38,398 nucleotides of DNA from contig JACPJR010000033.1 of assembly GCA_016187565.1 (NCBI GenBank), positions 1-38,398 of the forward strand. Direction: 5' to 3'. The stretch's first letter is position 1. Every line of letters starts with the position of its first letter. Made by a program: the position numbers and the translations under genes. The notes under the pieces are model-generated. The model saw only the letters and a program-made list of their open reading frames with translations, searched no databases and was not told the origin of the DNA. Source of the DNA: Candidatus Woesearchaeota archaeon (GTDB lineage: Archaea > Nanobdellota > Nanobdellia > Woesearchaeales > JACPJR01). Shown here in pieces: positions 27,097 to 27,427 of the stretch.

Positions 27097-27158
27097 GCGA
27101 AGCATAACCACATACCTGGTGGGCCCGTAGCTTAGGCTGGTGGAGCGCTGGTCTTATA

Positions 27159-27190
27159 TGGCCGCATTGCACCTTGCAATGGCTCAAGTC
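27159..27190 (+). other. Archaeal tRNA intron, anticodon-loop site 37/38
   Basis: A 32-base intron. It contains a perfect hairpin CATTGCA-CCT-TGCAATG. A bulge-helix-bulge can be drawn: 5' bulge TA|T, 3' bulge TC|A, and a central helix CTT/AAG with an A-C mismatch as the fourth pair, a relaxed form of the splice motif. Confidence 0.75.
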
Positions 27191-27212
27191 AGCCAGTGGT
27201 CGTGCGTTCAAA

Positions 27213-27254
27213 TAGACAAAGAAACTACCAAACCACGTTGCTTTGTGAGGAAAG
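27213..27254 (+). other. Non-canonical tRNA intron in the T-loop (near 59/60)
   Basis: A 42-base intron. ACAAAG (27216-27221) pairs with CTTTGT (27241-27246). The 3' bulge AG|T and a central helix TTC/GAA place the cut near position 59/60. A T at both ends leaves the exact border uncertain by one base. Confidence 0.7.
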
Positions 27255-27289
27255 TCGCGCCGGGCCCATTTTCTTTTTGACATCGCAAC

Positions 27290-27324: not shown

Positions 27325-27427
27325 GCTCCGTTAGTGTAGTCCGGCACAGGAATCGACAAGATCCCTGCGGGAACAATCATCTTGCCCTTTCGAGGCAAGG
27401 ACCCGGGTTCAAATCCCGGACGGAGCA
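27325..27427 (+). tRNA. tRNA-Glu (UUC) with a D-loop intron
   Basis: The acceptor GCTCCGT (27325-27331) pairs with ACGGAGC (27420-27426), discriminator A. The anticodon stem TTGCC/GGCAA holds loop CTTTCGA, anticodon TTC (Glu). The T-arm CCGGG-TTCAAAT-CCCGG is perfect. A 28-base insert (27346-27373) splits the D-loop. Without it the tRNA is 75 bases and the D-loop reads AGTCCGGC-CA, as in ordinary archaeal tRNA-Glu. A T-rich end (27428-27439) follows. Confidence 0.9.
27346..27373 (+). other. Non-canonical tRNA intron in the D-loop
   Basis: A 28-base intron. A full bulge-helix-bulge is visible: the central helix TCCG (27340-27343) pairs with CGGG (27368-27371) with one G-U pair. The 5' bulge is GC|A (27344-27346) and the 3' bulge AA|C (27372-27374). 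The inner stem CAGGAATC/GATCCCTG has one mismatch and a 5-base loop. Cutting after the second base of each bulge restores the normal D-loop. Confidence 0.8.

Follow-up and report, generated by a model that had tools for sequence, protein, structure and literature searches.

A covarying exon-intron hairpin predicted for the precursor of tRNA-Ile(UAU) in Woesearchaeales, and its possible role before splicing

Background

The persistence of tRNA introns is a long-standing question. It is raised anew by a tRNA gene of a Candidatus Woesearchaeota archaeon, which combines the anticodon UAU with two introns, one at the usual anticodon-loop site and one in the T-loop. Does either intron do anything for the tRNA, and how is AUA read with this anticodon? 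In eukaryotes, the textbook example of an intron required for modification of the anticodon is that of tRNA-Ile(UAU).

T-loop introns as such are already known, as are archaeal tRNA-Ile(UAU) genes with an intron. The published intron sites of archaea include position 59/60 (PMC4090602), the UAU tRNA of Korarchaeum has an intron (PMC6000648), and a tRNA-Ile intron is common to N. equitans and Nst1 (PMC3655853). The tRNA species, recorded in 2 of 167 archaeal genomes (PMC6000648), is common in the DPANN group considered here. A class-wide obligate intron or an exon-intron helix of the kind reported below was not found described in the open-access literature searched.

The gene and its two introns

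The source genome (1.94 Mb, 96.7% complete) carries the gene on contig C33, which provided the window, i.e., the whole stretch of 38,398 nucleotides that was analysed. Contig C30 (2962 bases) of the same genome appears to consist entirely of N, as if masked or withheld, and the N count of the genome is likewise 2962. The cloverleaf and an intron-aware scan resolve the locus and its neighbour as follows:

27121..27268, + strand: tRNA-Ile(UAU) gene with two introns, discriminator A73 at 27268
27121..27158, + strand: exon 1, tRNA positions 1-37, anticodon UAU at 27155-27157
27159..27190, + strand: intron 1, 32 nt, site 37/38, central bulge-helix-bulge (BHB) helix C32UUA35:CAAG with 3/4 pairs
27191..27212, + strand: exon 2, tRNA positions 38-59
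27213..27254, + strand: intron 2, 42 nt, T-loop site 59/60, central helix U54UCA57:GGAA with 3/4 pairs
within 27213..27254, + strand: inner helix of intron 2, ACAAAG/CUUUGU
27255..27268, + strand: exon 3, tRNA positions 60-73
27325..27427, + strand: tRNA-Glu(UUC) gene with a 28-nt D-arm intron, 57 bases downstream of tRNA-Ile(UAU) (intron-aware scan)

Once both introns are removed, 27121-27268 gives a complete cloverleaf with the acceptor stem GGGCCCG/CGGGCCC, D-stem GCTT/GAGC, anticodon stem CTGGT/GCCAG, anticodon loop CTTATA-A, T-stem GTGCG/CGCGC, T-loop TTCAAA-T and A73. Read in line, the gene is GGGCCCG-TA-GCTT..GAGC-G-CTGGT-CTTATA-(32-nt intron)-A-GCCAG-TGGTC-GTGCG-TTCAAA-(42-nt intron)-T-CGCGC-CGGGCCC-A. 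The acceptor GGGCCCG gives it the same body type as tRNA-Ile(GAU), that is, an Ile-type body. The bulges are U36A37/U and UC/A38 for intron 1 and A58A59/U and AG/U60 for intron 2 (the slash marks the exon-intron border). The BHB geometry is right at both sites, and with three of four central pairs at each the motifs are relaxed. An initial annotation made from the letters of the window had placed one intron at 37/38 and a second of 42 bases in the T-loop near 59/60, both with relaxed motifs of three good central pairs; its coordinates are exact to the base, and one mismatch per four pairs is indeed found at each site.

ARAGORN and Rfam at gathering threshold both missed the gene because of its two introns. 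When introns were allowed, ARAGORN reported a tRNA-Ser, which we rejected as a false merger of this gene with the neighbouring tRNA-Glu. Our own intron-aware scan of the whole genome recovered tRNA-Ile(UAU) with a score of 51, the best presumed false match scoring 46. Genes of a V/A-type ATP synthase adjoin the locus; in a comparison of the A subunit, the closest named genomes were a Woesearchaeota MAG (68%), an Aenigmatarchaeota MAG and a DPANN MAG without assignment.

The T-loop intron does not stand alone in this genome. The same scan found 59/60 introns in seven tRNA genes (Cys-GCA, Lys-UUU, Ile-GAU, Pro-UGG, Pro-CGG, Ala-UGC and Ile-UAU), where Pro-CGG (C9:70969-71078) is our own reading of a gene that the scan printed as Phe, and D-arm introns in several others. 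There is no categorical difference from other non-canonical 59/60 BHB introns of archaea: they are frequent in the order and share the central helix UUCA:UGAA. Across the class, an intron lies exactly at 59/60 in 33 tRNA-Ile(UAU) genes, among them the window gene. Their T-loop motifs are mostly strict (4/4 pairs in 24 of the 33), while the window locus is relaxed at both sites. About a third of the tRNA-Ile(UAU) genes of the order carry a T-loop intron, as does 1 of 19 from other orders. We therefore regard the T-loop intron as probably one member of the frequent 59/60 family of the order, with no special role.

Distribution of the 37/38 intron among relatives

Relatives of the gene were collected with one strict search pattern that covers the 5' exon only, ends at position 37 and is blind to everything downstream. 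It matches 101 of 192 genomes of the order, as against about three for a reversed-pattern control, so the matches to tRNA-Ile(UAU) are not due to chance. All 90 parsed relatives of the order possess the 37/38 intron, as does the window gene, and so do all 19 genes from other orders of the class, which makes an intron present in all 110 archaeal tRNA-Ile(UAU) genes read. Its length in the order ranges from 17 to 77 nt (median 31; 88 measured). Roughly half of the genomes of the order yield no match to the pattern, so that divergent or intronless forms may exist among them.

As a control, the same pattern was applied to the paralogous tRNA-Ile(GAU) of the order, of which 15 of 29 have a 37/38 intron (Fisher p = 1.2e-10 for UAU versus GAU, ignoring phylogeny). 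A tRNA-Ile(UAU) is widespread in the order and T-loop introns are common in it, and neither is individually special. The initial annotation could not reveal that no copy read lacks the 37/38 intron, nor that this intron covaries with the exon.

A predicted alternative exon-intron hairpin

A further element in the window is delimited by covariation in 89 genes and by MFE folding of the 5' exon together with its intron:

27149..27164, + strand: alternative hairpin of exon 28-32 UGGUC (27149-27153) with intron +2..+6 GGCCG (27160-27164), loop UUAUAU (27154-27159)

The 5' end of the 37/38 intron (G+2 R+3 C+4) is complementary to positions 30-32 of the 5' anticodon strand. The hairpin has the form C-UUAUAU-G and its loop shows the anticodon. 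Its covarying core comprises exon 29-32 with intron +2..+5. In the order, 30:+4 is a Watson-Crick pair in 89/89 genes (80 G:C, 9 C:G) and 32:+2 is C:G in 89/89; 31:+3 is paired in 81/89 and 29:+5 in 59/89, the latter with compensated A:U, U:A and C:G cases. Two genes, L334 (misparsed; its intron can be made out by eye) and L340 (unusual acceptor), were left out of these counts. By mutual information, 30 x +4 stands out (z ~50, the next 5). In a gapless alignment 89% of the cells of the hairpin helix are paired, as against 9-51% for slid versions and 95% for the BHB fold on the same alignment, paired-cell counts that include related sequences. Folded without the 3' exon, 68/108 cases have the hairpin in their MFE structure, as against 5/108 with shuffled introns.

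Outside the order, 18 of 19 genes from the rest of the class have the 30:+4 pair. Base 30 is found in either state within the families f62, f70 and f74 of the order and f101 outside it, so the switch probably happened several times; L410 is one exception. The pairing is moreover confined almost entirely to the UAU species: positions 32, 31 and 30 are all paired in 80/88 UAU introns, 0/15 GAU introns and 2/19 CAU introns. We interpret this pattern as one that suggests that the universal, covarying intron may do a job before it is removed.

Two other explanations of the match were considered and rejected. Intron +2..+5 could be taken for the real 3' anticodon strand, but this register gives an 8-nt loop and 3-4 pairs, whereas the 39-43 strand pairs in 99.8% of cells. 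Nor is the 30:+4 match an artefact of parsing, since +4 is counted from the invariant TTATA and the choice of the 3' splice site therefore cannot affect it.

A second conserved stretch, approximately RCGTTYYRTACAA (RCGUUYYRUACAA), lies 3' of the hairpin at intron +6..+18 (27164-27176 in the window) and is seen in the tRNA-Ile(UAU) introns of the order (L227-L346).

Decoding of AUA without TiaS

AUA is used at 13.4 per 1000 codons in this genome and makes up about 20% of its Ile codons. TiaS (PF08489) was found neither in the source genome nor in any of 60 relatives of the order or 236 genomes of the phylum; four control archaea were positive. A CAU tRNA-Ile2 was not found in this draft genome either, yet the search, which recovered only the initiator CAU tRNA, also failed to find an elongator tRNA-Met, a gene that has to be there. 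Because the elongator escaped as well, the missing Ile2 of one draft assembly says little by itself, and the case for AUA therefore rests on the clade: among 100 genomes of the order, pattern-matching CAU tRNAs number at most one per genome, and those of the order that were read have acceptor stems of the Met-elongator type.

The initial annotation had suggested that UAU replaces the agmatidine-modified CAU of most archaea and had pointed to tiaS as the gene to look for. The absence of TiaS at all three levels supports the replacement, which is, however, not peculiar to this locus, being widespread in the order and having precedents in Nanoarchaeum, Korarchaeum and ARMAN-2. As in the tRNA-Ile3(UAU) of Nanoarchaeum equitans, Nst1, Korarchaeum cryptofilum and ARMAN-2, UAU serves directly instead of CAU and an intron is present. 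Unlike those reports of single cases, the arrangement is here widespread within a class, with an intron in every copy read, and the window gene adds a T-loop intron. The locus is best read as a working tRNA-Ile(UAU) gene, predicted to decode AUA without agmatidine.

The wobble enzyme Elp3 is present in the genome (609 bits). The TruA/Pus1 family (PF01416) is absent from it, and a TruD homologue (TruD-like) and Cbf5 are the only pseudouridine synthases that were found.

A possible role before splicing

We propose, with a probability of roughly 55%, that the gene encodes an AUA-decoding tRNA-Ile(UAU) whose conserved 37/38 intron builds a hairpin for the modification or shielding of U34/U36 before splicing. 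The nascent 5' exon plus intron would fold first as the hairpin, in which U34 and U36 would be modified, or shielded from Elp3. The 3' exon would then displace the hairpin, the BHB would form, and EndA and a ligase would remove the intron. In this way the anticodon UAU would be kept from reading AUG (Met) by mistake, as is thought for the intron of yeast tRNA-Ile(UAU).

In yeast, Pus1 needs a helix between anticodon and intron to form Psi34 and Psi36 of tRNA-Ile(UAU), and does so in the precursor only; without the intron, U34 becomes ncm5U, which is able to read G (PMC11408192, PMC9602550, PMC4090602). The archaeal precursor resembles that of yeast in its anticodon, in its anticodon-loop intron, in the pairing of anticodon arm and intron and in the risk of reading AUG: with Elp3 present, the hazard would be the same, namely a wobble modification of U34 that can read G. 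The hairpin probably acts on the pre-tRNA, probably controlling modification of U34/U36 as the yeast intron does. The two systems differ in that the hairpin here, predicted from sequence, pairs the anticodon stem and C32, but not the anticodon, with the intron, and in that no Pus1/TruA gene is present. The yeast mechanism therefore could not be copied enzyme for enzyme, and an explanation by Pus1/TruA is ruled out for this genome by the absence of PF01416. In Cyanidioschyzon merolae, introns interrupt the D-, anticodon and T-arms of tRNA-Ile(UAU) (PMC9602550), so that anticodon-loop and T-arm introns are combined in the same tRNA species, although this organism is a eukaryote and its tRNA has three introns. 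The Pus1 of C. merolae barely modifies U34/U36 of the tri-intronic tRNA (PMC9602550), which counts against the modification model.

The main rival to this proposal is that the hairpin serves folding or the order of splicing only, holding the 5' anticodon strand until synthesis of the 3' exon. Hairpin and BHB are mutually exclusive, since they compete for C32 and the 5' strand of the anticodon stem, and the MFE folds agree with such a succession: that of the 5' exon plus intron contains the hairpin in 68/108 cases, and with the 3' exon added it does so in only 40/108. The window gene likewise switches in silico from the hairpin UGGUC-UUAUAU-GGCCG to the BHB when the 3' exon is included. However, in the same organisms tRNA-Ile(GAU), tRNA-Met and further tRNAs manage with introns that lack the hairpin, so a general need in folding fails to explain its occurrence in UAU only, and we consider this reading unlikely, if still a serious contender.

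Less probable again is an ordinary intron inherited from the class ancestor and never lost, whose pairing with the exon would be a relic or a functionless constraint. Many tRNAs here have introns, and such introns can persist, but the GAU paralogue has kept one in only about half of cases, and the joint switches of base 30 and +4 in several families are hard to account for without selection on the pair.

If the proposed role of the hairpin before splicing is correct, intron function becomes directly testable in archaea, and it is explained how a UAU anticodon stays safe beside AUG with Elp3 present. A broader statement would be that a DPANN class without TiaS guards AUA/AUG decoding by an obligate intron and a decoy anticodon hairpin, in a way that is convergent with or homologous to the eukaryotic system and does without Pus1; this we put forward tentatively, at somewhat less than even odds.

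The splicing endonuclease

The type of splicing endonuclease, which the initial annotation had raised as a point to check, proved to be a single-gene EndA of ~180 aa, and nearly all of the 41 genomes of the order tested have one gene. The protein is closest to NEQ205, the catalytic subunit of N. equitans. It has no CSL-type insert in comparison with the crenarchaeal chain 2cv8, and a second subunit was not found in the order (41 genomes), where a highly divergent beta subunit could remain. Neither the second subunit nor the CSL/ASL loop of the broad-specificity types, (ab)2 or e2, was thus recognised. Non-canonical tRNA introns are usually linked with a two-subunit or CSL-bearing EndA; here a single-gene EndA without CSL (L225, C21:12174-12434) is found in an order rich in such introns. 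According to the rule given in a review, efficient cleavage of relaxed motifs is limited to (ab)2 and e2 enzymes (PMC6379350), and the EndA beta subunit was likewise not found in Nst1 (PMC3655853).

That AUA is instead read by a CAU tRNA with a substitute for TiaS, and that the locus is an unspliced pseudogene, is very improbable. In its favour, neither BHB is strict, and a single-gene EndA is generally believed to favour strict motifs (PMC6379350). Against it, all stems are intact, the gene is conserved in >100 genomes, no CAU Ile2 was found in the order, and AUA is normally used.

Other tRNA genes

The 28-nt D-arm intron of the neighbouring tRNA-Glu(UUC) is identical to that of tRNA-Glu(CUC) at C3:14631-14732, which suggests recent copying of the intron or of the gene. 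A tRNA-Arg(CCU) of the source genome (G000 C10:23664-23856; anticodon by our own reading) combines a D-arm intron of ~84 nt with an anticodon-loop intron. Its tRNA-Thr genes (G000 C1:48488-48560, C3:72601-72673 and C11:15094-15233) are without the usual G18G19 and have the T-loop GTGCAAC, not TTCRANY. In the order, the 37/38 introns of tRNA-Met(CAU) resemble box C/D guide RNAs, with tgatga/ctga-like motifs (L347, L352, L354-L359, L363-L367, L369-L371, L373-L376), and are in this respect comparable to the tRNA-Trp intron of Haloferax.
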